From Blautia parvula (lineage in GTDB: Bacteria; Bacillota; Clostridia; Lachnospirales; Lachnospiraceae): a stretch of 64,000 nucleotides of DNA. Positions 6,979 to 62,924 of the stretch are shown piece after piece. The DNA is taken from positions 1-64,000 of the forward strand of contig NZ_CP084061.1 in NCBI RefSeq assembly GCF_020215665.1, in the 5' to 3' direction. Numbering within the stretch: the stretch's first letter is position 1; every line of letters begins with the position of its first letter. A program made the position numbers and the translations under genes. Under the pieces are notes generated by a model, which ran no database searches, had not been told where the DNA came from, and was given only the letters and a program-made list of their open reading frames with translations.

Positions 6979-7170
6979 CTATTTAGCCGCCTGTTCTCGA
7001 CAAAGTTCATCCAGTGTTACGCCCAGAGCATCGGCCAAACGTATCAGCGTTGAAACACGCCCATCTCCACGGCGTTCCAGATCTTCGATGGTTCGGAGGG
7101 GAACGCCGCTTAATTCGGAGAGCGCACGGCCGGACAGTCCTTTTTCAGTCCTTATTTGTTTGAGATTCAA
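6979..7170 (-). CDS. XRE-family helix-turn-helix regulator
   Basis: The 63-residue Cro/CI-type domain reads IRTEKGLSGRALSELSGVPL, followed by the recognition helix and LADALGVTLDELC. It uses a TTG start that overlaps the stop of the preceding membrane-peptide gene on the same strand, with GAGGTG upstream, so the two are coupled. It opposes the late operon and could control the divergent promoter region at 7521-7549. A phage Cro/repressor role or a role in a small toxin-type module are both possible. Confidence 0.75.
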   Translation of the reverse strand: MNLKQIRTEKGLSGRALSELSGVPLRTIEDLERRGDGRVSTLIRLADALGVTLDELCREQAAK

Positions 7171-7337
7171 TCCTTGTCACCTCTTTTCTTTACAAAAGAT
7201 ATGATTGACAGAATGAAAAGAATTACTACGAGAACCAGGATGATACAATCAAGCAGGGACAGATTACTGAAGTCAATAAGTTTCAGGGTGATGAAGACAA
7301 TCAATAATGTGGTTGTGGTTTGGTATAAATCTTTCAT
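7167..7337 (-). CDS. Small membrane protein coupled to the XRE regulator
   Basis: A 56-residue product begins MKDLYQTTTTLLIVFITLKL and has a second hydrophobic span (CIILVLVVILFILSIISFV), ending in KKRGDKD. Its TGA overlaps the TTG start of the regulator gene. The region before the ATG lacks a clear ribosome site, which lowers confidence in the start. It forms a small minus-strand operon with the regulator. Confidence 0.55.
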   Translation of the reverse strand: MKDLYQTTTTLLIVFITLKLIDFSNLSLLDCIILVLVVILFILSIISFVKKRGDKD

Positions 7338-7375
7338 TTTAGTTTACAATATGGTATAATGACATTACCCACAAG

Positions 7376-7396
7376 GGGGAGGGGCTTTCGCCCCTC
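7376..7396. repeat. GAAA-loop hairpin between two small genes
   Basis: GAGGGGC and GCCCCTC pair around a four-base loop (GAAA on the minus strand). No T-tract follows on either side, so it looks like a structural or processing element rather than a classical terminator. Confidence 0.45.
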
Positions 7397-18364: not shown

Positions 18365-21300
18365 GTGGGATTATTGGCTGATGGCAAAATTACGATTGAC
18401 ACAAGTATAGATAATGCTGGGGCGCTAAAAGACCTTAAAAAACTGACAAGTAACGTCAGCCAACAGGGTAACGCAGCAGCAGGGGCAGCGTCCAGTGCTT
18501 TTAGTAAGATTGGTTCCGCCGCGAAGCATTCGGCAGAGATTGCGGTAACGGCTCTTGCCGGTGTTGGTACAGCAATAACAGTAGCCGGCGGTTTTGCCGT
18601 GAAAGTTGGCTCTGATTTCGAGGCTGCCATGTCAAAAGTAGCCGCTGTTTCTGGGGCGACCGGGACAGACCTTAGCAAACTGACCGAAAAAGCTAAGGAG
18701 ATGGGTGCGAAAACAAAATTCTCTGCTTCGGAAGCCGCTGAAGCCATGAATTATATGGCAATGGCCGGTTGGAAAACAGAGGAAATGCTGAATGGTGTAG
18801 AAGGTATCATGAATCTGGCAGCGGCGTCAGGAGAGGATTTAGCATCTACATCTGATATCGTGACGGATGCATTGAGTTCGTTCGGACTGCAGGCCAGTGA
18901 CAGCGGGCATTTTGCGGATATCCTTGCAGCGGCGTCCAGTAATGCGAATACCAATGTGGCCATGATGGGTGAGACGTTTAAGTATGCGGCATCCGTAGCT
19001 GGGGCAATGGGGTATACCGCAGAGGATACAGCTCTTGCAATCGGCTTGATGGCGAACAGAGGTATAAAGGCAGGACAAGCGGGAACTGCACTTAGAAGCA
19101 TCATGACCAGGCTTGCAAAGCCTACGAAAGAAACCCAGGGTGCCATGAATAAGCTTGGTATATCCCTGACAGATTCTGAGGGAAATATGAAGTCCCTGGA
19201 TACCATCATGCAGGATCTGCGTGAGGGATTTTCTGGGCTGAGTGAAGAGGAGAAAGCGGCTACAGCGTCAGCATTAGGAGGCCAGGAGGCAATGTCCGGT
19301 CTGCTGGCTATTGTAGGAGCATCTCCAGAAGAATATGAAAAGCTGCAAAGCGCCATTGAAAATTGTGACGGCACTGCTGAGAGAATGGCAGAAACCATGC
19401 TGGACAATCTGCAGGGAAGCCTAACCATCCTCAAATCATCTCTGGAAGGTCTGGGAATCGAAGTATACGAGAGTATGCAGGAGCCTTTAAAGAATGCTGC
19501 AGATAACGGGATTGCGGACGTTAACAGACTCACAGAGGCTTTTAAGCAGGGCGGATTTGACGCTGCTGTTGAAGAGGCAGGAGACATACTGGCAGGGCTT
19601 GCTACGAAGGTGGCACAATCGGCTCCAAAGATGATAGACGCCTCAGTTTCCGTAGTTAAATCCTTCGTAAAAGGTATTGGCAAAAACAAAATGCAGCTTA
19701 AAGTTGCAGCGAATGATATTGTAAAATCCCTGTGTGACGGACTGGTAAAGCTACTCCCGAAGGAAATGCAGAAACCTGCAAAGAAAGCCTTGGACTCTCT
19801 CGTCAGGACATTCAAGTCCGGGGCTAAAAACCTTTTGAGCGTTGCGCAGTCAGTTTTAAACGCTGTAGGTGCAGTGTTTAAAAGGCTGGGCGGGAATATG
19901 GATGATATTATCCCTACTGTTGTCAGCGTTGTGGCTGCATTTAAAACTTTCAAAGCTGTTAGCGGTCCGGTGTCATCCGTTGTAAGCGTCATCACCAGTT
20001 TGACAGGCGCTGCAAAAGGTGCAGGTCTTGCTACCACTGCCCTGAATGCTATTATGGCTGCAAACCCTGCTACCCTGATTGCCGGTGCCATTGCCCTACT
20101 TGTAGGCGGATTGGCTACATACGCACTCACAGCAGGACGCGCGGATGAGCAACAGGATGTTTTCAATAAGAAAATGGATGAACTTGGTGCTTCCATTGAA
20201 AAGACACAAAATGACTTGGATAGTCTGAAGGATTCCATGTCAAATACCAGTTCATCTATTGAGGCGTCTGGTGCCCCAATAGAAAAGTGGAGGGGGAAAC
20301 TCGAAGAGGCTTTTGATGAAACGGGGCATGTAAAAGAAGGCTGTGAAGATATGGCAAACTATATCTTGGGGCAGCTAAATGATGCTATGGGTACCAATTA
20401 TCATGTTACATCAGAAGGCTTTATTGCTGATAATGATGAAGTTCAGCAATCATTGAAAGATGTAAATAATACCATAGATGAGTATGTGCGTAATCTGAAG
20501 CTAAAATCTTTACAGGAAGCAACATCAAGCCAGTTTACAGAGGCACTTCAAAAACAGGGAGAGGCTCAGGGGGAATTAAACGAGGCTCAAAAAAGATATA
20601 ATGATGCGCTAAAGGATTATTCAAAGGCCGTTGAGAACTATAATAAAAACGGTGATTTAGAAGGCTTTGAAAAGGCGCAGACAAATTTAGAAAATACTAG
20701 GGAAAAATTATCTCAGGCAAGTAAAGCAGCAGTTGACGCTGGAACGGAAATACAAGGTTTGGATGCCGTCATGGATAAGTTGGCGGAAGGAACGCCAGAA
20801 AGTGTACAAGAAGCTCTTAACATGTATTCGCAGATTCCTGTAGAAGCACGTAACGCGGCTGACGGAATAGCCGTAAGTCAAGAAGTTATTCAACAAGCAC
20901 TTGGATCTACAGATTATACGACCATGACAGAAGGGTTTCATCTCGCTGTCATGCAAATAGAAGAATCTGGAGGTGAAATACCAAAGAGTCTCCGCGCATC
21001 CATCTTGCAGGCATTGCTGGCAATGGGAGAACTTGGTGGTGAAGGCAAAGAGCAGATGCAGCGCTCAATGGGTGAAATGCTTGAAGGTATGAGCGGAGAA
21101 ATTCCGGCTTTCAAGGATGCATCTGTTATGACATCTGAAGAAATCCTAAATACATTCCGTGAATACTTAGTTGATAGCGGTGCGTTAGATGGTACAGGAA
21201 AAGATATGATGGATATTCTTTCCGGGGAAATCGCAGATGGTGGACAGACAGCAAAGGAGACGGCGGGGGAAAAGGCTGAGGAAGTCGTGGATGAAACTGT

Positions 21301-22843
21301 CCAAAAAATAAACGAAGGTAAACCCGAAGTAAATGAAGCCGGTGCGGACCTGATGGAAGAAATACCAGAAGGTGCATCCGGGGTTGACACAACTACGGTA
21401 CCGGCAGAAAAAACTGAAGAATCAATAGAGGCGATGACAGAATCGGCTGACGCTGGAAAAGAGCCTGTAAATGCAGCAATGGCGGAAGTGACCGAAGAAG
21501 TGAACAACGGAGCCAGCTCAGTCGATACAACAACGGAACCTTCAGAAACAGGTACAAATGCGGTACAAGCTCTTATAAATGCAATAAATGGCCTGAAAGA
21601 TACCGTTCAGTCAACTTCTGCATCCATCGGATCGGCGGCAAATGCAGGAATTGCCTCAGCTAATATGCCTACAGTATTTGGCACAAACGCACAAGCGGCT
21701 ACGGATATTGCAAATCTTACTCTCATGAATGGGGCAGCACAGGCAGGAGCAAGCGGTGCCAATTTTGGTAATTCCACGAATGCGGCTCTTATGGCGTCAA
21801 ATATGCCAGGTGTATTTGCTGGTCAGGCAAATGGTGCGGCGTCAAATTTTGCATTTGGTATGTTGTCCGGTGCAGGCCAGGGCGCTGCGGCGGCAAGCAG
21901 TGTGGGCAGTTCCGCGGGTATGGCCTTACAAAATTCAGGAATCAGCAGTATGTTCCAGACAACCGGAACAAATGCGACCAACATCTTGAATAGCACCATT
22001 AAAGGGAGCCAGGGTACAATATCCTCAGCAACTAAAAATCTTGGACGTTCTTCCGCATCTGCCCTAAAAGGAGTGAACCTGGGTAGTAATTTCCAGTCTC
22101 AGGCCCGCTCAGCTGTGAATATGTTTTGTGCCGGTATCAGAGGTATTACATCCTCCGCTATAAGTGCGGCAAGAGCATTAGGCACCGGAACTATTCGGGG
22201 ATTGAGCGAGTGTAACCTTTCTACAGAGGGGAGGACACAAGGCTCAAAATTTGCAAGATCATTCAGTGAAGGGATTGATTCAGGTCGAAGTTCTGCGTCT
22301 ACAGCAGCATCCGGTCTTGGCAGTGATGCAGAAAGCAGTCTGAGCGGTTATTCTGGCAGTGGTTATGACATAGGTGTCCAGTTTTCTGCAGGCTTCGCTT
22401 CTGGTATTCGGGCAGGCGGCGGCGGAGTGGCAGCAGCGGCAGCAGACGTTGCAAATCAAGCTGTAGCAGCCGCACAGCGAAACCTTAAAGTAGCATCACC
22501 TTCCAGGGTTATGCGTGCAATAGGACGTTGGTATGACAAGGGACTTGAAGTAGGTATCGACGAAAACAAGCGAGGTGTCGAAAAAGCTGTTGACCGGTTG
22601 TCTGATAAATTGACATTTGACCCAAATTCTTTACTTGCGAAAATGCGAGGAGATTTTGACAACAACCTGAGCCGGATTGCCGGGAATCATTTGGCGAATA
22701 GGTATATCGCCACGGTAACAGCGCCTGAACCGCAGGAACCGGCAAAGGTAGAGCAGACGGTGAATATATATCAGCCTGTGAAATCGCATGTAGAAATGGC
22801 AAGAGAACTGCGGAAAGTAGGAAGGGAGCTGGCATTTGGATGA
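18365..22843 (+). CDS. Tail tape measure protein
   Basis: At 1492 residues this is the longest gene. The N-terminal third matches the TP901-type tape measure core (GSDFEAAMSKVAAVSGATGT, then LADILAAAS-like and GIKAGQAGTALRSIMTRL). Hydrophobic stretches near 515-585 form membrane spans, a coiled-coil section follows near 600-830, and a serine/alanine/glycine-rich repeat region spans 1080-1400. It sets tail length and helps DNA cross the cell membrane. The start is GTG with AAAGG upstream; a TTG nine bases later is the alternative. No lysozyme or peptidase motif was seen. Confidence 0.93.
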   Translation: MGLLADGKITIDTSIDNAGALKDLKKLTSNVSQQGNAAAGAASSAFSKIGSAAKHSAEIAVTALAGVGTAITVAGGFAVKVGSDFEAAMSKVAAVSGATGTDLSKLTEKAKEMGAKTKFSASEAAEAMNYMAMAGWKTEEMLNGVEGIMNLAAASGEDLASTSDIVTDALSSFGLQASDSGHFADILAAASSNANTNVAMMGETFKYAASVAGAMGYTAEDTALAIGLMANRGIKAGQAGTALRSIMTRLAKPTKETQGAMNKLGISLTDSEGNMKSLDTIMQDLREGFSGLSEEEKAATASALGGQEAMSGLLAIVGASPEEYEKLQSAIENCDGTAERMAETMLDNLQGSLTILKSSLEGLGIEVYESMQEPLKNAADNGIADVNRLTEAFKQGGFDAAVEEAGDILAGLATKVAQSAPKMIDASVSVVKSFVKGIGKNKMQLKVAANDIVKSLCDGLVKLLPKEMQKPAKKALDSLVRTFKSGAKNLLSVAQSVLNAVGAVFKRLGGNMDDIIPTVVSVVAAFKTFKAVSGPVSSVVSVITSLTGAAKGAGLATTALNAIMAANPATLIAGAIALLVGGLATYALTAGRADEQQDVFNKKMDELGASIEKTQNDLDSLKDSMSNTSSSIEASGAPIEKWRGKLEEAFDETGHVKEGCEDMANYILGQLNDAMGTNYHVTSEGFIADNDEVQQSLKDVNNTIDEYVRNLKLKSLQEATSSQFTEALQKQGEAQGELNEAQKRYNDALKDYSKAVENYNKNGDLEGFEKAQTNLENTREKLSQASKAAVDAGTEIQGLDAVMDKLAEGTPESVQEALNMYSQIPVEARNAADGIAVSQEVIQQALGSTDYTTMTEGFHLAVMQIEESGGEIPKSLRASILQALLAMGELGGEGKEQMQRSMGEMLEGMSGEIPAFKDASVMTSEEILNTFREYLVDSGALDGTGKDMMDILSGEIADGGQTAKETAGEKAEEVVDETVQKINEGKPEVNEAGADLMEEIPEGASGVDTTTVPAEKTEESIEAMTESADAGKEPVNAAMAEVTEEVNNGASSVDTTTEPSETGTNAVQALINAINGLKDTVQSTSASIGSAANAGIASANMPTVFGTNAQAATDIANLTLMNGAAQAGASGANFGNSTNAALMASNMPGVFAGQANGAASNFAFGMLSGAGQGAAAASSVGSSAGMALQNSGISSMFQTTGTNATNILNSTIKGSQGTISSATKNLGRSSASALKGVNLGSNFQSQARSAVNMFCAGIRGITSSAISAARALGTGTIRGLSECNLSTEGRTQGSKFARSFSEGIDSGRSSASTAASGLGSDAESSLSGYSGSGYDIGVQFSAGFASGIRAGGGGVAAAAADVANQAVAAAQRNLKVASPSRVMRAIGRWYDKGLEVGIDENKRGVEKAVDRLSDKLTFDPNSLLAKMRGDFDNNLSRIAGNHLANRYIATVTAPEPQEPAKVEQTVNIYQPVKSHVEMARELRKVGRELAFG

Positions 22844-23694: not shown

Positions 23695-24309
23695 ATGGAA
23701 AGCTATGGTTTTTTTAACGGAGATACCGAGTACGGACAGGACGAGTTCAACCGGTATTTCAAGAATATATATGAGGACGGCTTAAGTAGGGGGAGTAATG
23801 GCAGCCTTACTTTGTCAGCCTCACTAAGCGGCGAATCAGTGATTTTAACGCCCGGTTTTGCTATTATGCAGGGCTTTTTTTATTACAACGACAGCAACAA
23901 GACCATACCGATCACTCGTAATAGCACCTACAAAGTGATCTATCGTCTTGTGCTGCGTTTGGATTATGAGAGTAAAACAATACAGGCCGTGCTCAAAGCA
24001 GGTACTGCCGGCAGTACACCCACAGTACCTGCACTCACGAGAGATGCGTCGCGATATGAACTATCCCTGTATCGTATTGATGTCCCTGTGACCGGTCAGA
24101 TATCCATAACTGATGAGAGATTCAATACTGCGTTATGTGGTGAAATCAGACCGAAAAATTTGGCTGGATACAAAGAAATGGTAGAAGAATTTGATAGGCA
24201 GTTCCAGGCGTGGTTTAAAAACGTGCAGGGAACCGGTTGGCGTAACATTTTTGCACAGGCTACGGAGCCTGGAGGGGCGGTGACAGGAGCCATATGGATA
24301 AGCGGATAA
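23695..24309 (+). CDS. Baseplate/structural protein
   Basis: The 204-residue product starts MESYGFFNGDTEYGQDEFNR and is beta-rich, with ILTPGFAIMQGFFYYNDSN and a long helix near the end (EFDRQFQAWFKNVQG). Proteins of this form occur between Dit and the tail-associated hub in Clostridial siphophages. Its stop overlaps the next gene by 16 bases. The exact role is unknown. Confidence 0.7.
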   Translation: MESYGFFNGDTEYGQDEFNRYFKNIYEDGLSRGSNGSLTLSASLSGESVILTPGFAIMQGFFYYNDSNKTIPITRNSTYKVIYRLVLRLDYESKTIQAVLKAGTAGSTPTVPALTRDASRYELSLYRIDVPVTGQISITDERFNTALCGEIRPKNLAGYKEMVEEFDRQFQAWFKNVQGTGWRNIFAQATEPGGAVTGAIWISG

Positions 24310-25739
24310 ATATACGGTTTTTTGACCCCGATATCAATTTTATCGGAGAGATCACAGACTACACGGCCCTGATCCATGTCAGCAAATGGAAAAGTTATGG
24401 AGATTTTGAAATCCATTCCTCTGTTATGTATGACCGGTTATTTCAGGATGGGAATATCATCATGCTTGACAATGACGCCAGGAAAACAGGGATTATAAAG
24501 TACATCGGGGCGGATGACGAAGAGGGAGGATCTGTGGAACTCAAAGGGTTCTCTCTGCTCCATATGCTCACGCAGAGGATAACAGTCCCGCCAAAGGGGA
24601 AAGCGCATCATGAATTTAACAAGGCCGCGGCAGAAGATATCATGACTGCTTTGGTTAACACAAATGCAGTTTCCCCGGCGGACAGTAAAAGAAAAATCCC
24701 TAAGCTTGTGATAAAGCAAAGCGCCGGCAGGGGTGATCGGCTGACATACCAAACAAGGTATGACGTACTTACTGACTGCCTGGAGGAGTTATGTAGCGCC
24801 TCGGGACTTGGTGTCTGTGTATCGTTGGACCCACAGAATAAGCAATTTGTATTTGAGGTATTAGAAGGTGTGGACCGGACAGTGAATCAAACTGACCGCC
24901 CGCCTATGATCTTTAATGTCAACTACGATAATATTGAAAATCGTGAGTACATTCGGGATAGCAGCGAATACAAAAACTGTGCTTACACTGGAGGACAGGG
25001 AGACGGAGCAAAGCGAGTCATTAAAATCATTGGAAATGAGAAAACCGGTCTTGATCGGTACGAGTTGTTTGTGGATGCCCGGGACGTAGAAGATGAAGCG
25101 AACCTACCGGACCGAGGCAGGGTAAAGCTGGTAGAATGTGAGAAAATATCCTCTTATACCTGCGAGGCCGATGCAGCTCTGTATCAAAAAAAGTGGAACC
25201 TTGGTGATGTGGTCACAACGAAGGATGCAGAGTGGTCCCTTTTACTGCATGAGCGGATCACGGAAGTCATGGAAACACTTGATTCGGACGGGTATGTAGT
25301 TGAGCCAACCTTCGGCACCGCTACGAAATCCATCATAGAGAAAGTTAATGCCGTCAGCGGAGACACTGCGAAAAACGAGAGTATACCTGGTCCTGAAGGA
25401 AAGCAGGGGCCACAGGGGTATAGTATACAGTACCGCTGGGATGGTACAAAACTTGGTGTAAAGCGAGAAGATGAAGGAGCCTATAAATATACTGACCTGC
25501 AGGGACCTGCCGGTAAAGATGGGCAGGACGGCAAAGACGGCATGAGCGTCACATATACACATACACAGATATCAGCTCAAGCCGTGTGGCAGATTGCGCA
25601 CAACCTTAATAAGTATCCCAGTGTTACCGTGGTAGACAGCGCTGGCTCCGTTGTCGTAGGTGATATCCGTTATATTGACCGTAACAACCTCACAGCAACA
25701 TTTACCGCCGGTTTTGCAGGAAAAGCGTATCTCAATTAG
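24294..25739 (+). CDS. Gp37-like tail hub protein with collagen-like segment
   Basis: The 481-residue protein matches the ReqiPepy6 Gp37-like hub family over residues 1 to about 350 (INFIGEITDYTALIHVSKWK at the start). After it come two collagen-like patches (GPEGKQGPQG and GPAGKDGQDGKDG) and a beta domain ending FAGKAYLN. That end domain (WQIAHNLNKYPSVTVVD) resembles the end of the next fibre protein (AITHNLNTQDVTVTV), so both may present the same trimerising or binding fold. Confidence 0.87.
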   Translation: MDKRINIRFFDPDINFIGEITDYTALIHVSKWKSYGDFEIHSSVMYDRLFQDGNIIMLDNDARKTGIIKYIGADDEEGGSVELKGFSLLHMLTQRITVPPKGKAHHEFNKAAAEDIMTALVNTNAVSPADSKRKIPKLVIKQSAGRGDRLTYQTRYDVLTDCLEELCSASGLGVCVSLDPQNKQFVFEVLEGVDRTVNQTDRPPMIFNVNYDNIENREYIRDSSEYKNCAYTGGQGDGAKRVIKIIGNEKTGLDRYELFVDARDVEDEANLPDRGRVKLVECEKISSYTCEADAALYQKKWNLGDVVTTKDAEWSLLLHERITEVMETLDSDGYVVEPTFGTATKSIIEKVNAVSGDTAKNESIPGPEGKQGPQGYSIQYRWDGTKLGVKREDEGAYKYTDLQGPAGKDGQDGKDGMSVTYTHTQISAQAVWQIAHNLNKYPSVTVVDSAGSVVVGDIRYIDRNNLTATFTAGFAGKAYLN

Positions 25740-25747
25740 GAGGAAAA

Positions 25748-27991
25748 ATGGATTTATTAACTAATTTGAATTTGGGTAAGAATGAACTGCAGAATGCAAG
25801 GATACAGAATCTTGCTACTGCACCGGACAGCCCCGTAGAGGGGCAGATATATTGCAACACAACAGATCATGTGGTCTATGTGTATGTTAACGGTGCCTGG
25901 AAAAATATCATATACACCTACACCGGTGAGACATTTACTTTGGCTCTCAAATCAAAGCTGGATGGAATCACCGCAGGGGCAACCAAAGTAGAAAAATCAA
26001 CAACAAACGGAAATATAAAAATCAACGGATCTGAGACGCAGGTTTATGCTCATCCGGGTAGTGGCACAAATCCACATGGTACTACTAAAACTGACCTGGG
26101 ACTTGGGAACGTCGAAAATAAATCGGCGGCCACAATCCTTAACGAGCTGACAAAAGCTAAGATTGTGGAAAAGCTGGGGTTCACGCCTACAAAGATAACT
26201 GTGGGTCTGGATGCAGATAAAGGTACTGCATCAGGGAGTAAAGCACTGTATATTGCCACGGATACAAAAAAGATTTGGTTGGACAATGCCGCAAATACCT
26301 GGCTACAGGTTGGCGGGCAGGATACAATCACATGGGTAAATGTGACTGGAAAACCATCTACATTCCCACCGGCAGCACATAACCATGACAGTGTGTACCT
26401 TGGAATTAATGCTAAAGCCAAAAGTGCTGCCACTGCCGACAGTGTTCTGTGGTCGGGTGTAAGCGGGAAGCCGTCTACTTTTACACCTCCTGTTGCAAGC
26501 GCTACAGTGCTGGGTGGAATTAAAGTAGGGACAAACCTGAGTATCACAACAGATGGTGTACTCAGCGCAAATGATAACCCCACGAGCTATATCGTAAAAC
26601 AGCAGAGATTTACAGCTACAGCAGGACAGACAGCCTTTACTTTGACCGGCGGAAAATATCGACCGGGAATCGGTGCGCTGGCTGTCTTTTTGAATGGGGC
26701 AAAAGTCAGCAATGAGATTGTGACAGAGACGTCGCAGACAGTATTTACACTTAAAACCGGAGTGGATGCGGGTGATACGGTCCTTGCGGAATACGTCGAG
26801 CTGATAAATGTGGAGCCATACCCGGTACATGCTTCGGAACACATGACAGGGGGAACCGATCCGATACCTGTAGCAACACAGTCAGCCGCAGGTTTGGAAT
26901 CCGCCGCGGATAAAAAGAAGCTGGACGGTATTGCTGAAGGAGCAAACAAATATGTTCATCCCGGCAGTGGTACAAATCCACATGGTACCACAAAGTCAGA
27001 TGTTGGGCTTGGAAATGTGCCGAATGTTGCCACGAACGATCAGACACCGACATACACAGAGGCAACCACTCTTGCAAAGCTGACTTCCGGTGAAAAGCTG
27101 TCTGTGGCGCTGGGTAAAATATCGAAGGCCGTCACAGACCTGATCGCGCATATTGCGAATAAGTCAAACCCACATGGCGTTACAAAAGCTCAAGTTGGAC
27201 TGGGGAATGTAGATAATACATCAGATGCAAATAAACCTGTATCCACAGCACAGCAGGCCGCTTTAAATTCAAAGCTTAACACATCCTTAAAAGGAGCCGC
27301 AAACGGCCTTGCAGAGCTGGATAGCACAGGTAAGGTTCCGGCTGCGCAGTTGCCCTCTTTTGTGGATGACGTGCTGGAAGGGTATTACTACAGCAGCAAG
27401 TTTTACAAGGAGGATACGCATACCACAGAGATCACAGGTGAGACCGGAAAAATCTATGTGGATCTTCCGACAAATAAGACATACCGCTGGTCAGGAAGTG
27501 CATTTGTGGTTATCTCAGATACAATCGCTCTCGGTGAAACGGCCTCAACAGCATATCGAGGCGATCGCGGAAAGGTTGCATACGATCACAGCCAGAGTGC
27601 ACACGCCCGGACAGATGCTACTAAAGTAGAAAAGTCAGGAACAAACGGAAACATAAAAATCAATGGATCTGAGTCAGTGGTATATACGCATCCATCTACA
27701 CATGCAGCAAGTATGATTACTCCCGATGCTACGCACCGTTTTGTAACCGATACAGAAAAAGCAGCATGGAATGCACGCCCGAAAAAGTACAGCGCAGATG
27801 TGCCTGCCAGTGCTTCAGCCGCCATAACTCATAACCTCAATACGCAGGATGTCACCGTGACTGTGAGGGAAAAAGCAAGCCCTTACAATGTCGTTTTGTG
27901 CGACGTGCAGGTGACTGGTGTAAATGTAGTCACACTGCTGTTTGCCACGGCTCCGGCCTCTGGTAAATACAGGGTGACCGTGACCGGTTAG
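25748..27991 (+). CDS. Tail fibre protein
   Basis: The 747-residue fibre holds repeated shaft motifs: HPGSGTNPHGTTK followed by DLGLGNV-type sequence appears twice and a variant (SNPHGVTKAQVGLGNVDNTS) once. TKVEKS with NGNIKINGSE also occurs twice. The N-terminus (LNLGKNELQNARIQNLATAP) is the usual virion-attachment start. GYYYSSKFYKEDTHTTEITG marks a conserved fibre module, and the end is the HNLNTQ beta domain. It projects from the baseplate towards the host surface, with the variable lectin-like proteins downstream. Confidence 0.88.
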   Translation: MDLLTNLNLGKNELQNARIQNLATAPDSPVEGQIYCNTTDHVVYVYVNGAWKNIIYTYTGETFTLALKSKLDGITAGATKVEKSTTNGNIKINGSETQVYAHPGSGTNPHGTTKTDLGLGNVENKSAATILNELTKAKIVEKLGFTPTKITVGLDADKGTASGSKALYIATDTKKIWLDNAANTWLQVGGQDTITWVNVTGKPSTFPPAAHNHDSVYLGINAKAKSAATADSVLWSGVSGKPSTFTPPVASATVLGGIKVGTNLSITTDGVLSANDNPTSYIVKQQRFTATAGQTAFTLTGGKYRPGIGALAVFLNGAKVSNEIVTETSQTVFTLKTGVDAGDTVLAEYVELINVEPYPVHASEHMTGGTDPIPVATQSAAGLESAADKKKLDGIAEGANKYVHPGSGTNPHGTTKSDVGLGNVPNVATNDQTPTYTEATTLAKLTSGEKLSVALGKISKAVTDLIAHIANKSNPHGVTKAQVGLGNVDNTSDANKPVSTAQQAALNSKLNTSLKGAANGLAELDSTGKVPAAQLPSFVDDVLEGYYYSSKFYKEDTHTTEITGETGKIYVDLPTNKTYRWSGSAFVVISDTIALGETASTAYRGDRGKVAYDHSQSAHARTDATKVEKSGTNGNIKINGSESVVYTHPSTHAASMITPDATHRFVTDTEKAAWNARPKKYSADVPASASAAITHNLNTQDVTVTVREKASPYNVVLCDVQVTGVNVVTLLFATAPASGKYRVTVTG

Positions 27992-28007: not shown

Positions 28008-28208
28008 ATGAAGATATTCGGCAAGGAGTTTATATACAATGGGTACAAAGTTTACCACGCTGGTGATAAGCCAACAGCGGCGGACGTGGGAACATATACC
28101 AAGGCTCAGATAGATCAGAAGATAACAGATGGAAATGGAACCAAGATAACAGCGGCAACAACAGCGCCAAGTGCCCCCGCAAAGGGTGAGGTATGGATCA
28201 AAATTTGA
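28008..28208 (+). CDS. Short fibre-associated protein
   Basis: The 66-residue product (MKIFGKEFIYNGYKVYHAGD, then a Thr/Ala-rich linker ending GEVWIKI) has GTYTKAQIDQKITDGNG, as in fibre tips or connectors. A GGAGGACCAGC site precedes the ATG. It may link the long fibre to the exchangeable receptor-binding protein encoded 13 bases later. Confidence 0.65.
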   Translation: MKIFGKEFIYNGYKVYHAGDKPTAADVGTYTKAQIDQKITDGNGTKITAATTAPSAPAKGEVWIKI

Positions 28209-28221
28209 AGGGAGATATATT

Positions 28222-28623
28222 ATGGCAGCAATAAAAAAATCACAGTTTAAGATTAATAATGGGACAGATTGGGACACTTATCACTTTGAGACAGACAGTG
28301 CCCAGACAAAGCACAAAAAAAGTGACGGCACAGAAACCACGGTGGAAGAGGTGCTAAACTCCGCTTTAGGGGGCTTTATGATTCAGACAGGGAAAATACC
28401 GATTACCCCAAAGCCAAATGAACCGACATCTCAACATTTAACGTTTCCAAAAAAATTCAAAAGTGCTCCGGTAGTCATGTTGACTCCATCCAGCGCAGTC
28501 CCCGGAACAGCTATACAAGGCGTGAGCGCAGTAAATGTAGAATCATCTGGTTGTGACGTATATATAACCAGAAATAATAATACTGAAACTAATATAATGT
28601 GGCTTGCTGTTGGGCCTAAGTAA
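28222..28623 (+). CDS. Receptor-binding protein with exchangeable lectin-like C-terminus (expressed copy)
   Basis: The 133-residue product has a constant N-terminus (MAAIKKSQFKINNGTDWDTY to residue 43) that ends at a recombination site encoding VLNSALGG. The remainder (about 84 residues) ends in CDVYITRN and IMWLAVGPK. This part resembles the H-type lectin fold (F-x-F pattern, then G-(F/C)-D and W-x-A-x-G at the end). Three alternative versions lie downstream without this N-terminus. Start: GGGAGATATATT before the ATG. Only the module next to this N-terminus is expressed with it. Confidence 0.85.
   Translation: MAAIKKSQFKINNGTDWDTYHFETDSAQTKHKKSDGTETTVEEVLNSALGGFMIQTGKIPITPKPNEPTSQHLTFPKKFKSAPVVMLTPSSAVPGTAIQGVSAVNVESSGCDVYITRNNNTETNIMWLAVGPK
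28351..28373 (+). repeat. Shufflon site A (plus orientation)
   Basis: GTGCTAAACTCCGC then TTTAGGGGG. It lies at the joint between the constant N-terminus and module 1. The central AAACTCCGCTTT is identical in all four sites. Confidence 0.88.
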
Positions 28624-28625
28624 TC

Positions 28626-28898
28626 CTACATCTTTCCTATTGCAAGCCATGATATTTCTGTATCGGTATCATTTGTTCTTAGCACATATATGTCAAATCC
28701 ATTTGTTGTTGTACCTATTACTCCAACTCCCAGTAATACTTTACCAGCAACAGATGATCTGGGAGTTATGAAGACTTCTGGTTTGCTTTTAAAAGGCGTC
28801 TTAAATGTTACATGTTTTGATGTTTGTTCATTTGGAACCGGCGTTATTGTGGTTTGCCCCGTAAGTAGTGTCATTCCACCTAAAGCGGAGTTTTGCAC
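28626..28898 (-). CDS. Silent lectin-like module 2 (inverted)
   Basis: From site B the minus strand encodes QNSALGGMTLLTGQTTITPV, then a variant of the receptor-binding C-terminus ending FDIYVLRTNDTDTEISWLAI and GKM. Its stop is only 2 bases from the stop of module 1, tail to tail. No ribosome site precedes it, so it is silent until inversion between sites A and B fuses it to the constant N-terminus. The open frame continues further upstream only as antisense of the recombinase gene. Confidence 0.82.
   Translation of the reverse strand: MQNSALGGMTLLTGQTTITPVPNEQTSKHVTFKTPFKSKPEVFITPRSSVAGKVLLGVGVIGTTTNGFDIYVLRTNDTDTEISWLAIGKM
28876..28898 (-). repeat. Shufflon site B (minus orientation)
   Basis: On the minus strand GTGCAAAACTCCGC then TTTAGGTGG. 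Relative to site A it has A instead of T at position 5 and T instead of G at position 21. It directly abuts the recombinase leader hairpin. Confidence 0.88.
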
Positions 28899-28938
28899 AC
28901 GCCTCCTGTCTGGTACAATGATACCGGAAAGGAGGCGT
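28899..28938 (+). promoter_or_regulatory. Hairpin sequestering the recombinase ribosome site
   Basis: ACGCCTCC (from 28899) pairs with GGAGGCGT (28931-28938), with an inner GGTA/TACC pairing. The downstream arm contains the GGAGG ribosome site of the recombinase gene, so the folded leader should limit its translation. Confidence 0.7.
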
Positions 28939-28941
28939 TTT

Positions 28942-29934
28942 ATGGACGCAAGGATGGAGATATTAGAAAATGTACTGCAGGCCGTGGCCGGGATTATACC
29001 GGAAACAGCTCTTGCTGGGCTTGAATCAGCACTGTGCGCAGAGCTTGAAAAGTATGAGGTACAAGAACGAACAACAGAAATGGTGATCCGGGATGGCACG
29101 GCAGAGGGATTGCTGCGGAAATTTTTGGCCACAAAGAGAATTGAAGGGAAAGCAGAGTCGACGATTGAATATTATAGGCAACAGCTCACTATGTTTTTGC
29201 ATAATGTGGGAAAGTTGTTGCCAGAAATAACCACATTCGACCTGAGATTTTACCTGTCAGCTTATAAAGAAAGGAGAAAAGTCAGAAACCGGACGCTGGA
29301 TAATATCCGGAAATGTCTATCAACTTTCTTCACATGGCTGGCAGATGAAGAATTTATCCAGCGGAATCCTTGCAGAGGGCTGAAATCAATCAAGTACAGG
29401 AAAGTCATGAAGAAGGCATTCTCACAGGAAGAACTGGAAAAACTAAAGTCCGCTTGTGAGAATTACCGGGATTTGGCACTTGTGGGATTTCTGTATTCCA
29501 CAGGATGTCGTGTGTCAGAGGCTATATCAATCAATCGTAATAGCCTGGATCTGGAAAAAAGAGAGTTGAATGTAGTGGGAAAGGGCGATAAGGAAAGGAC
29601 AGTATACTTAACAGAGGTGGCCGTAATGTATTTACGGCTGTATTTAAGTGGCAGACAGGATGAAAGTCCAGCCTTATTTATAGGCCGTAGTGGTGGAAGA
29701 TTAACAAAAAACGGGGTGGAAACGGCCTTAAAGAGGATAGGATTGAGGGCGGGGGTTGAAAATGTACATCCTCATAGATTTAGGCGTACGTTGGCGACAA
29801 ATATGATTGACCGGGGAGCGTCATTACAGGATGTCCAAGCCATTCTCGGGCACGAAGATATCCGGACAACACAGGTATATGTATATACAAATCAGCGTAA
29901 TGTTAAAAATTCTCATGAGAAATATGCTGCATAA
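28942..29934 (+). CDS. Shufflon tyrosine recombinase
   Basis: The 330-residue tyrosine recombinase has a SAM-like core-binding domain (LRKFLATKRIEGKAESTIEY) and a catalytic domain with Arg in STGCRVSEA, Lys in VVGKGDKERTV, HPHRFRR (His-x-x-Arg), LGHED and the Tyr of TTQVYVYT. I take the ATG at 28942, directly after AAAGGAGGCG; the longer frame upstream is antisense of module 2. The gene lies among four inverted copies of one site, as Rci does in the R64 shufflon. Being inside the invertible region, its own orientation may change when outer sites recombine. Confidence 0.92.
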   Translation: MDARMEILENVLQAVAGIIPETALAGLESALCAELEKYEVQERTTEMVIRDGTAEGLLRKFLATKRIEGKAESTIEYYRQQLTMFLHNVGKLLPEITTFDLRFYLSAYKERRKVRNRTLDNIRKCLSTFFTWLADEEFIQRNPCRGLKSIKYRKVMKKAFSQEELEKLKSACENYRDLALVGFLYSTGCRVSEAISINRNSLDLEKRELNVVGKGDKERTVYLTEVAVMYLRLYLSGRQDESPALFIGRSGGRLTKNGVETALKRIGLRAGVENVHPHRFRRTLATNMIDRGASLQDVQAILGHEDIRTTQVYVYTNQRNVKNSHEKYAA

Positions 29935-29956
29935 ATAAGGAACCGGCTGTTTTAAA

Positions 29957-29980
29957 GTCTGCGATAGCGCAGGCTTATTT
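29957..29980 (+). terminator. Hairpin after the recombinase gene
   Basis: GTCTGCG-ATAG-CGCAGGC forms a compact stem followed by TTATTTGT, a plausible weak terminator for the recombinase mRNA. Confidence 0.55.
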
Positions 29981-29993
29981 GTCGTGTCTAAAA

Positions 29994-30308
29994 ATGCAAA
30001 ATGAAGAGATCTTAGAGAAGATTACGATAGATGTGCTAAACTCCGCTTTGGGAGGCTTTATGATACAGGCAGGAAGGATAAATATAACTCCTAAGGCTAA
30101 TATGCCAACAACAAAGCATTTAACTTTTCCAAAGCCATTTAAAGAACAAGCGATAGTTTCATTGACCCCTGTCTCAGGTGTACCCGGCCAAAAAGTTCTT
30201 GGTGTGGGTACACTAAACAACACCAGTGAGGGTTGTGATGTTGTTTTGACCAGAACAGAAACTACAGAAACGGTAGTCGCTTGGATAGCAATAGGACCAG
30301 CAAAATAG
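29994..30308 (+). CDS. Silent lectin-like module 3 (direct)
   Basis: From site C the plus strand encodes LNSALGGFMIQAGRINITPK and a third version of the C-terminus, ending CDVVLTRTETTETVVAWIAI and GPAK. A short leader (MQNEEILEKITIDV) precedes the site, with no good ribosome site. It would be expressed after rearrangements that bring site C to the constant N-terminus (for example an A-D inversion after C-D inversion). Its stop is 8 bases from the stop of module 4, tail to tail. Confidence 0.8.
   Translation: MQNEEILEKITIDVLNSALGGFMIQAGRINITPKANMPTTKHLTFPKPFKEQAIVSLTPVSGVPGQKVLGVGTLNNTSEGCDVVLTRTETTETVVAWIAIGPAK
30033..30055 (+). repeat. Shufflon site C (plus orientation)
   Basis: GTGCTAAACTCCGC then TTTGGGAGG. 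Shares T at position 5 with site A and the GGGAGG end with site D. Confidence 0.88.
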
Positions 30309-30315
30309 ACATTGG

Positions 30316-30588
30316 TTACATCGGGCCAATAGCAACCCATGTTAGTATGGTTTCTGTACTGTTTGTTCTTTTGACATAGGCGTCGAATCCATCTTTTGTA
30401 TTGTTGTCAGTACCCACGCCCTGTACTGTAGTACCTGGAACGGATGTTATAGGGGTAAGTATTACATCCGCTTTATCTTTAAAAGGCTTAGGAAATGTTA
30501 CACGCTTCATTGTCGGTTCGTTGGGTTTTGGCGTAATAGTCACTCTGCCCGACTGAATTGCTCTTCCTCCCAAAGCGGAGTTTTGCAC
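30316..30588 (-). CDS. Silent lectin-like module 4 (inverted)
   Basis: The minus strand from site D encodes QNSALGGRAIQSGRVTITPK and a fourth version, ending FDAYVKRTNSTETILTWVAI and GPM. All four modules keep the PITP/NITP start, TFPKPFK centre and W-x-A-x-G end but differ widely between. This is the expected pattern for alternative ligand-binding domains. No ribosome site precedes it. Confidence 0.82.
   Translation of the reverse strand: MQNSALGGRAIQSGRVTITPKPNEPTMKRVTFPKPFKDKADVILTPITSVPGTTVQGVGTDNNTKDGFDAYVKRTNSTETILTWVAIGPM
30566..30588 (-). repeat. Shufflon site D (minus orientation)
   Basis: On the minus strand GTGCAAAACTCCGC then TTTGGGAGG. It is the outermost site and defines the right limit of the invertible locus. 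Confidence 0.88.
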
Positions 30589-30622
30589 ACAGAAAGATGG
30601 TGATTTGAATGGAAATCAGATC

Positions 30623-30647
30623 AAGACCGGTGGCGGTCTTATTTTTA
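30623..30647 (+). terminator. Terminator closing the fibre/shufflon locus
   Basis: AAGACCG-GTGG-CGGTCTT is a perfect 7-bp stem followed by ATTTTTAT. The conjugative element is inserted in or right after this T-tract. Confidence 0.85.
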
Positions 30648-30656
30648 TACAAAAAA
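30642..30656. repeat. ICE left junction (coupling sequence)
   Basis: TTTTTATACAAAAAA here and TTTTTATCAAAAAAA at 62910-62924 flank the element. Tn916-family elements insert into T-rich/A-rich sites and carry short unequal coupling sequences; the difference (TAC versus TC) sits in the centre. Just inside the ends, GATAATCAGA is found in inverted orientation on both sides. Confidence 0.75.
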
Positions 30657-30826: not shown

Positions 30827-32017
30827 TTAACAAGCCAGCCTTTCCAGTTCCGCTTTTGCAGATTGAAATGTACCGTGTGCGTAATAGCCAAGTGTCATGG
30901 TTATGTTAGCGTGTCCCATGAGATATTGCAGGGTGTTTGGGTTCATTCCTCTATTTGCCATATTCGTACAATAAGTATGTCTGAATGAATGTGGTGTGAT
31001 GTTTGGTAACTTATCCGTGTGATACTTGTTATATTTCTTAATCAATCCTCGCACCATACCCTCATAGTTTCCTGCAACTTTAGGCAAGCCCTCACGGTTT
31101 AAGAATAGGAAATTGCTGTAACCACCTACAATCAACGGTTGTGCCTTTCCTCTGTTCTCTAGTATTCTTTGGATTGCTTGATAAGCCCGTTCTGTCAATG
31201 GAAGTTCACGTTTTCCGTTTTTAGTCTTTGGCGTTTCAATATAGTAACCCATTTCGCTATCTTTCAATAACTGGTGGTCTATATTGAGTATTCTGTTCTG
31301 CATATCAATATGCGTCGTCAATCCGCAAAATTCAGAAATACGAAGTCCCGTTTCCAGCAGAAGCACAACCTCATCATAATACTTACTGTAAATCTTGTCC
31401 GTTTCCATAAAGGCAAGCAGGTGTTTTTCCTGCTCTGGTGTAAGGATAACTTTCTGCTCCGTATCATCTTCCAGAACATCACTTAGCTTAAATTCAAACG
31501 GGTTCTTTCTGATACAGTCGTCTTGTATCGCCATATAAAATGACGCTTTCAAGGAACGCTTATAGTTATCAATCGTTTTATAGGCATATCCTTTTTCACT
31601 CATTCTGATAGCCCATTCTTTAGCGTCTGACTGTTTGACGGTATCAATCGCTCTCATACCCAACAGGTCATTTTTTAGAGCGTTCATAAGATACTGTCGT
31701 CCTTTTTCAGTAGCCCTCTTGATGTTCTTTCTTTGACTGTTCTTTTTCTCGTAGAGCTGGCAGACTGTCATTTTACCGCCGACTGTGTCGATACCGTCGT
31801 TAAGGTCTTTTTTTATCTGTGCTTCTTTTTCCCTCAACGATATATCATCACGCTTTCCAGCAGGTGTCTTGTCTGTCGGTACAAGTTTCCAAGAATAGAT
31901 AAACTGTGGCTTTCCGTATATATCGGTATATTTATAAACGTATCTTCCGTCTTTTCGCTGGCTCTCTCCATTACGCAAATTGCGATTTTTACTGTCTTTT
32001 CGTTTTACATTAGACAT
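30827..32017 (-). CDS. int: ICE integrase (Tn916 Int-like tyrosine recombinase)
   Basis: The 396-residue protein follows Tn916 Int throughout: an N-terminal arm-binding domain (GESQRKDGRYVYKYTDIYGK), a core-binding domain (MSEKGYAYKTIDNYKRSLKA) and a catalytic domain with Arg in ETGLRISEFCG, HSFRHTYC, MGHANITMTL and Tyr in LGYYAH. It performs excision and integration of the element, using the arm sites near both ends. It reads toward the left end and lies just inside it. Confidence 0.96.
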   Translation of the reverse strand: MSNVKRKDSKNRNLRNGESQRKDGRYVYKYTDIYGKPQFIYSWKLVPTDKTPAGKRDDISLREKEAQIKKDLNDGIDTVGGKMTVCQLYEKKNSQRKNIKRATEKGRQYLMNALKNDLLGMRAIDTVKQSDAKEWAIRMSEKGYAYKTIDNYKRSLKASFYMAIQDDCIRKNPFEFKLSDVLEDDTEQKVILTPEQEKHLLAFMETDKIYSKYYDEVVLLLETGLRISEFCGLTTHIDMQNRILNIDHQLLKDSEMGYYIETPKTKNGKRELPLTERAYQAIQRILENRGKAQPLIVGGYSNFLFLNREGLPKVAGNYEGMVRGLIKKYNKYHTDKLPNITPHSFRHTYCTNMANRGMNPNTLQYLMGHANITMTLGYYAHGTFQSAKAELERLAC

Positions 32018-62909: not shown

Positions 62910-62924
62910 TTTTTATCAAAAAAA
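62910..62924. repeat. ICE right junction (coupling sequence)
   Basis: TTTTTATCAAAAAAA pairs with the left junction copy; GATAATCAGA lies just inside. The prophage sequence resumes immediately afterwards with the ribosome site of the lysis cassette. Confidence 0.75.

Follow-up and report, generated by a model that had tools for sequence, protein, structure and literature searches.

The question raised by the locus at 28222-30589 of the DNA analyzed here (the window: 64,000 nucleotides from Blautia parvula, positions 1 to 64,000 of the forward strand of contig NZ_CP084061.1, assembly GCF_020215665.1) is whether a recombinase gene set among repeated sites marks a device for exchanging the tip of a phage tail protein. 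We consider it very probable that it does and that this is a phage tail-tip shufflon with four alternative tips. A tyrosine-recombinase shufflon of this kind had been proposed in an initial annotation, and the anatomy of the locus with its unbroken reading frame, the predicted fold of the tip, and exchange at the site among relatives, each of which we observed, agree with that proposal.

Direct reading of the locus confirmed a constant N-terminus at 28222-28350 and alternative C-terminal modules in the orientations plus, minus, plus, minus. The number of modules, four, held as annotated, while their length did not: each extends for 88-89 codons from the site rather than for about 84 residues. 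All four are read in a single codon register from the site (NSALGG...), have shared starts, and are 45-60% identical to one another. They abut tail to tail in the pairs 1/2 and 3/4, as had been described, with stops at 28623/28626 and 30308/30316; module 2 runs on the minus strand from 28898 to its stop at 28626. The complete tyrosine recombinase claimed between modules 2 and 3 is an intact open reading frame (28942-29934) with a PF00589 match; neither it nor any of the four modules is interrupted, and all are in frame. The features of the locus are listed below, the slot being the expressed position behind the constant half.

28222..28623, plus strand: expressed fiber-tip gene, 43 constant N-terminal codons plus module 1 (translation; PHROG tail fiber, E 1.6e-6; Gp53-like_C)
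28222..28350, plus strand: constant half, 43 codons, common to L279, L144, and G008, whose slot modules differ
28351..28373, plus strand: site A, within the expressed gene, encoding LNSALGG and overlapping helix 41-48 of the model
In frame until the stop at 28623, plus strand: module 1 (direct reading)
28626..28898, minus strand: module 2, silent, inverted (direct reading); an M2-type module is in the slot of G098
28876..28899, minus strand: site B, inverted repeat
28892..28919, plus strand: weak promoter-like site for the recombinase, TTTGCA-16-TACAAT with TG before the second box, overlapping the flank of site B
28942..29934, plus strand: tyrosine recombinase, 330 amino acids, XerA/XerC-like, ATG at 28942 and stop at 29934
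29955..29976, plus strand: terminator-like hairpin 3' of the recombinase
30033..30055, plus strand: site C, direct repeat of site A
30036..30308, plus strand: module 3, silent (direct reading); an M3-type module is in the slot of L279
30316..30588, minus strand: module 4, silent, inverted (direct reading)
30566..30589, minus strand: site D, inverted repeat
30623..30640, both strands: terminator-like hairpin at the right edge of the locus

The four sites, short asymmetric repeats in the order plus, minus, plus, minus, agree as GTGC.AAACTCCGCTTT.GG.GG over 23 bp. The shared 23-bp site of the initial annotation is borne out in that four in-frame copies exist, but the part identical in all of them is only a 12-bp core, AAACTCCGCTTT, found exactly in 4 of 4 sites (28356 and 30038 on the plus strand, 28882 and 30572 on the minus strand). 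Six copies of this 12-mer occur in the 6.25-Mb genome, four at the locus and two as single copies elsewhere, and in 300 dinucleotide shuffles of 28222-30620 no 12-mer appeared more than two times on either strand, compared with the four observed.

How would such a locus work? The XerA-like recombinase encoded inside the array would recombine the four 23-bp sites. Inversion between A and B would put module 2 behind the constant half, inversion between A and D would put module 4 there, and module 3 would be reached by two inversions (C x D, then A x D) or by one A x C deletion. The reading frame would be kept at each exchange since the linker that joins the halves, LNSA, is encoded by the site. 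Where two direct sites recombine (A x C, B x D), a segment would be deleted or, in reverse, captured. The expected product is a short fiber-tip protein with an H-type-lectin-like C-terminal domain, and inversion would vary what the virion tip binds. We infer that the window recombinase acts on the window sites, that the four tips differ in ligand, and that inversion alters host binding; the copy is likely active in this strain now.

What kind of tip is exchanged? For Gp53-like_C, modules 1, 3, and 4 score above the curated Pfam cut-off of 24.9 bits (29.7, 30.3, and 27.0 bits), and module 2 falls below the cut-offs, with 18.7 versus 24.9 bits for Gp53-like_C and 23.9 versus 24.0 bits for H_lectin. 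An AlphaFold model, which covers the expressed gene (module 1) alone and used an alignment of 12 rows, has high confidence starting at residue 51 (block means 76-96) and is poor upstream, and the site overlaps a low-confidence predicted helix at residues 41-48 (block mean predicted local distance difference test score 61). The predicted fold of the expressed module resembles H-type lectins and phage and pyocin fiber tips (tailspikes, discoidin), and the predicted structure of module 1 has the beta-sandwich of H-type lectins. The modules had been called lectin-like, and the H-type-lectin/fiber-tip fold predicted for module 1 is in keeping with that description; the model supports a sugar-binding-like domain at the tip. 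It is the predicted fold that links the protein to fiber tips and lectins, because a sequence search of solved structures with the fiber-tip gene gave two matches, the best with E 0.17. The cargo matches fiber-tip families and is not the pilV pilus adhesin as in R64, and the window modules are Gp53-like_C/H_lectin-like, not Methylase_S.

Are ends in fact exchanged at the site? The core together with lectin-like modules was found in L029, G098, L141, L144, and G008, and also in L279, where both copies carry one change (L170 and L141 do not differ where they overlap, and G008 and L144 encode identical module proteins). When the window is counted among them, six loci hold five types of module in the expressed slot. 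M1 fills that slot in the window. In G098 the slot holds an M2-type end, 93% identical in protein to window M2, and an M1-type end is inverted; its module-1/2 segment is reversed relative to the constant half, with 94.1% identity over 355 bp and 85.8% over 226 bp, and the homology between the window and G098 stops right at the border of the 12-bp core. G098 is most simply read as the result of an inversion. L029 belongs to the phage type of G098 (79% over 5.4 kb); in it, K1 is in the slot and an M2-type end is inverted, and at site C (7070-7378) an end that the lectin-like profile missed stands in frame behind the site, suggesting that unrelated ends may be pluggable there.

The same module can also stand behind different constant halves. 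J1 is in the slot of L141, whose constant half is like the G098/L029 kind, and in the slots of L144 and G008, which have the window kind; the J1+K4 pair is found behind both, with 93.6% identity between L141 and L144 along 640 bp that end at the site. L279 is 87.5% identical to the window over 4.76 kb, and its constant half is joined directly to an M3-type end followed by M4; compared with the window, it lacks what lies between direct sites A and C (M1, M2, and the recombinase). L279 can be read either as deletion or capture via the direct sites or as an older two-module state. Inversion was also seen among loci with related recombinases: between L079 and L091, a 427-bp segment is turned around at 98.8% identity, with collinear flanks of 99.2% and 94.5%, and 330 bp are inverted at 99.4% between L072 and L073 (unlabeled, on the fiber side of the tree described below).

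To which family does the recombinase belong? It matches PF00589 with E 2.1e-40 and has a SAM-like N-terminal domain (Pfam), residues 1-56 being without a confident family. Its score against NCBIfam NF040815 (XerA/XerC-like) is 232.4 bits, with a cut-off of 220, and its four best solved-structure matches are Xer recombinases. Residues R190, K214, K217, H278, R281, H304, and Y313, which we take to be catalytic, are invariant in 11 aligned sequences, window included. Recombinase matches with E ≤1e-30 were found in 18 of 98 related genomes: the window's own, G019 (52% identity), and 16 others (32-43%). The locus DNA itself is matched, in part, in 3 of 20 genus genomes, the window's own included.

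Relatives of the recombinase were found in 182 loci (189 with the window and six fecal phage scaffolds; some are duplicates). The two large scans kept the best 80 each, and the query alignment mixed both kinds, so that the loci are samples. A layout of alternating 11-bp repeats around the recombinase, sought with a finder that requires alternation, is present with at least three repeats in 66 of the 182 loci and with at least four in 45. Labels were assigned from the surroundings: 74 loci are hsdS (own profile, within 2.5 kb) and 26 are fiber, window included (17 with at least four sites, nine with three), after five script-labeled fiber loci (L180, L051, L090, L094, and L065) were dropped by eye because their repeats were low-complexity or not tied to module open reading frames. 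As to cargo, Methylase_S (PF01420) is matched by 33 of 36 representative site-crossing open reading frames of the hsdS-type loci. For the constant halves of 21 of the 25 non-window fiber loci (L040, L071, L074, and L176 left out), 69 PHROG families were matched, and of the first 25 all that bear a name are tail or baseplate families.

In a quick recombinase tree (100 rows, 98 distinct), the fiber and hsdS labels were split by one branch with a support of 100 in the Shimodaira-Hasegawa-like approximate likelihood ratio test, and none of 500 label shuffles gave a value as low. The same split was seen in a quick tree made under a mixture model with 21 fiber and 71 hsdS rows, from which L046, L109, L067, L183, L203, and L047 (long branches) and L192 and L236 (duplicates) were omitted; long branches meet at the fiber/hsdS split, and its support is to be weighed with care. 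When all 189 rows were used, the fiber side held 26 of 26 fiber, 0 of 74 hsdS, and 71 of 89 unlabeled rows. By a 9-base test with strict spacing, the layout was found in 13 of 22 fiber, 24 of 57 hsdS, and 2 of 50 unlabeled rows with enough flank, the shuffled-flank expectation being 0.1, 0.0, and 0.0, respectively. Because the layout was seen in few unlabeled rows, the fiber side may consist only in part of shufflons; the tree is unrooted and sets no order on fiber and hsdS use. By reading of the site letters, the conserved NxNL of HsdS (in 36 sequences the first N and the L do not vary, and the second N is kept in at least 90%) lies at the site; fiber sites encode, for example, LNSA, INSNL, LNSK, and INGNL.

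These comparisons suggest a broader hypothesis, which we regard as possible but tentative. A dedicated phage recombinase branch, kin to those of hsdS shufflons, may run portable tail-tip cassettes: the site would be phase-locked to the linker, unrelated ends would be pluggable, and phages would gain from or lose to one another, in an integron-like manner, the recombinase and two modules that direct sites enclose.

Several observations weigh against an active shufflon driven by this recombinase. The assembly of this strain holds a single arrangement. The G098 and window phages are unlike outside the locus and have different constant halves, and the flip seen in G098 need not have occurred in the window phage; the first base of the G098 contig (L263 1-235) coincides with the start of the site core, and module 1 is broken there by a scaffold gap of 10 N, a start and a gap that might be the assembler's trace of a mixed locus. 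In the five sequences of G098, L144, L141, L279, and L170, all possibly fragments, no recombinase relative was found, and those in G008, a complete genome, are all distant (best 29%, E 3e-27), so that these two-site loci may not be switched by this enzyme. Close relatives are rare: of 397 genomes in the family, 2 have a match at E ≤1e-95, namely the window's own and G019 (52%), and the G019 locus lacks the alternating layout according to the site finder. On the fiber side of the tree, the layout accompanies 26 of 97 recombinases, and the 9-base test adds 2 of 50. The locus might on such grounds be a frozen relic, once an active shufflon and now fixed with its modules as silent archives, as the one arrangement in this assembly and the related two-site loci in whose sequences no recombinase was found would allow; yet neither the recombinase nor any module has lost its open frame, and the four site cores do not differ. 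We regard a relic as improbable.

Another alternative, still harder to maintain, is that a short conserved stretch lets phages exchange modules through ordinary homologous recombination, while the recombinase has a different task such as integration or dimer resolution. The mosaic nature of the phages of this group and the similarity and shared starts of the four window modules favor this, but the opposite orientation with homology ending at the edge of the 12-bp core speaks against it, as does the recurrence of recombinases of the same family between inverted sites that have other sequences and other modules; we hold this explanation to be very improbable. A use that overlaps with the shufflon is cassette capture, in which the locus would mainly gain and lose modules via its direct sites and inversion would be secondary. 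It would account for L279 lacking the A-to-C stretch, for J1+K4 behind two constant halves, and for the end at L029 site C that escaped the lectin-like profile. An ancestral two-module locus could also explain L279, however, and the alternating orientation (in the 66 loci given by the finder that requires it) together with the direct inversion cases indicates that inversion is real in the class; capture as the main use appears rather unlikely. We retain the tail-tip shufflon as the preferred reading.

Signals for expression were sought within the region. Promoter-like sites numbered 7, versus 6.3 expected by shuffling, and the TACAAT box is the same in L029; terminator-like hairpins numbered 5, versus 2.4 expected. 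The recombinase has a ribosome-binding site, AGGAGG, at 28930-28935. A hairpin over this site (28899-28938, -26.8 kcal/mol in the window) was rejected as a general feature, the values being -10.0 in L029 and -7.7, with another pairing, in L173. An Rfam scan of the window at gathering thresholds gave 0 matches. The stretch just before site C (29994-30055) resembles the end of a second constant half (MQNEEILEKITIDVLNSALGG) and is perhaps the leftover of an older expressed slot.

The window carries a siphovirus-type prophage with terminase, portal, and head genes, a tape measure gene (18365-22843), and a distal tail protein gene, followed by a Gp37-like baseplate protein. The features next to the shufflon and at the far end of the prophage are these:

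24294..25739, plus strand: baseplate/tail protein, Sipho_Gp37 family (Pfam PF14594, E 9.8e-82)
25748..27991, plus strand: large tail-fiber-like virion protein upstream of the shufflon (PHROG: best match unnamed, then structural and tail families)
28008..28208, plus strand: short open reading frame with weak tail-fiber similarity (PHROG tail fiber, E 8.2e-6)
63202: holin, prophage lysis region

Homology to related phages ends at 30645-30654 and restarts at 62910. A Tn916-type integrase (30827-32017, PF02920) and about 32 kb of other DNA (about 30647-62909), probably a conjugative element, split the prophage between the shufflon and the lysis genes. A Blautia phage has one module similar to those of the window, and this phage and the named tree neighbors of the recombinase point to Lachnospiraceae as the host family.

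Some loci found in the survey stand apart from these arguments. In Acetatifactor muris (L174 928-9252, NZ_JANJZD010000039.1), seven alternating copies of an 11-bp site surround a fiber-type recombinase, perhaps a larger shufflon. Allobaculum mucilyticum (NZ_CP078089.1) has two hsdS-type loci in one genome (L219 and L239) with the same recombinase kind and the same 11-bp site. The human-fecal phage scaffolds L271 (4206-7111) and L272 (404-3447) carry hsdS loci in the four-site layout. The fecal scaffolds L271-L276 were rejected as fiber shufflons: L271, L272, and L273 carry hsdS (two with the four-site layout), and L274-L276 have neither label nor layout. The 'integrase' between the tail and holin genes of Terrisporobacter phage TPELB_ph1 was likewise rejected, as it has no alternating layout.

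How does the locus compare with known systems? The R64 shufflon, in which the Rci tyrosine recombinase swaps pilus-tip ends, and the fiber inversions of phages Mu and P1 by serine invertases resemble it in that C-terminal ends of a surface-binding protein are swapped by inversion; R64 differs in acting on a pilus tip, and Mu and P1 differ in using serine invertases. The same likeness and the latter difference apply to Min of p15B, a serine invertase as told in PMC6109161.

Closer counterparts are published, and they weaken the view of the initial annotation that such a system is hardly described: two papers report Rin shufflons in prophages of Bifidobacterium (2018, PMC6109161) and Rin-like ones in clade 1 prophages of Eggerthella lenta (2022, PMC8778435). 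As described there, the Bifidobacterium system has a phage tyrosine recombinase, with variant arrangements seen in reads, and shares with the window a constant receptor-binding half, several alternative ends (of 95-100 residues), and short repeated sites. It differs in that its recombinase lies beside small, tandemly oriented end genes with an 11-bp site, TTCCCTAACCC, whereas in the window the recombinase lies between two tail-to-tail pairs with another site; the alternating orientation of the window modules is unlike the one-sided tandem Rin arrangement. The Eggerthella shufflon, as reported, combines a tyrosine recombinase with small variable genes, often with H-type lectin domains, and differs in its 8-bp site (ttccgtat), its tandem variable genes beside the recombinase, and its actinobacterial host. 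Phase-variable type I restriction hsdS loci, for example that of PsrA in the pneumococcal cod locus (PMC7096588), encode a recombinase within the locus, and the genes exchanged contain inverted repeats. In the hsdS loci found here the layout is often that of the window, site+ site- recombinase site+ site-; they differ in having a DNA-specificity subunit as cargo and recombinases on the other side of one branch.

If the tail-tip shufflon is real, tail-tip shuffling by a tyrosine recombinase extends from phages of Actinobacteria to phages of Lachnospiraceae (hosts partly named by relatives) and is tied by phylogeny and shared layout to hsdS shuffling. The locus would then offer a compact 2.4-kb system for measuring how often switching occurs, whether inversion or deletion is chosen, and how modules are captured, and predicting hosts from the fiber of a single assembled arrangement would leave three of the four tips out of account. 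No report of the layout in phages of this host group was found in the open-licence papers searched. Taken together, the comparison places the locus in a known kind, the tyrosine-recombinase shufflon of a receptor-binding protein; what looks new here is the recombinase family, whose sampled fiber-type and hsdS-type members separate on one branch, and an arrangement, site+ site- recombinase site+ site-, that hsdS loci have as well.

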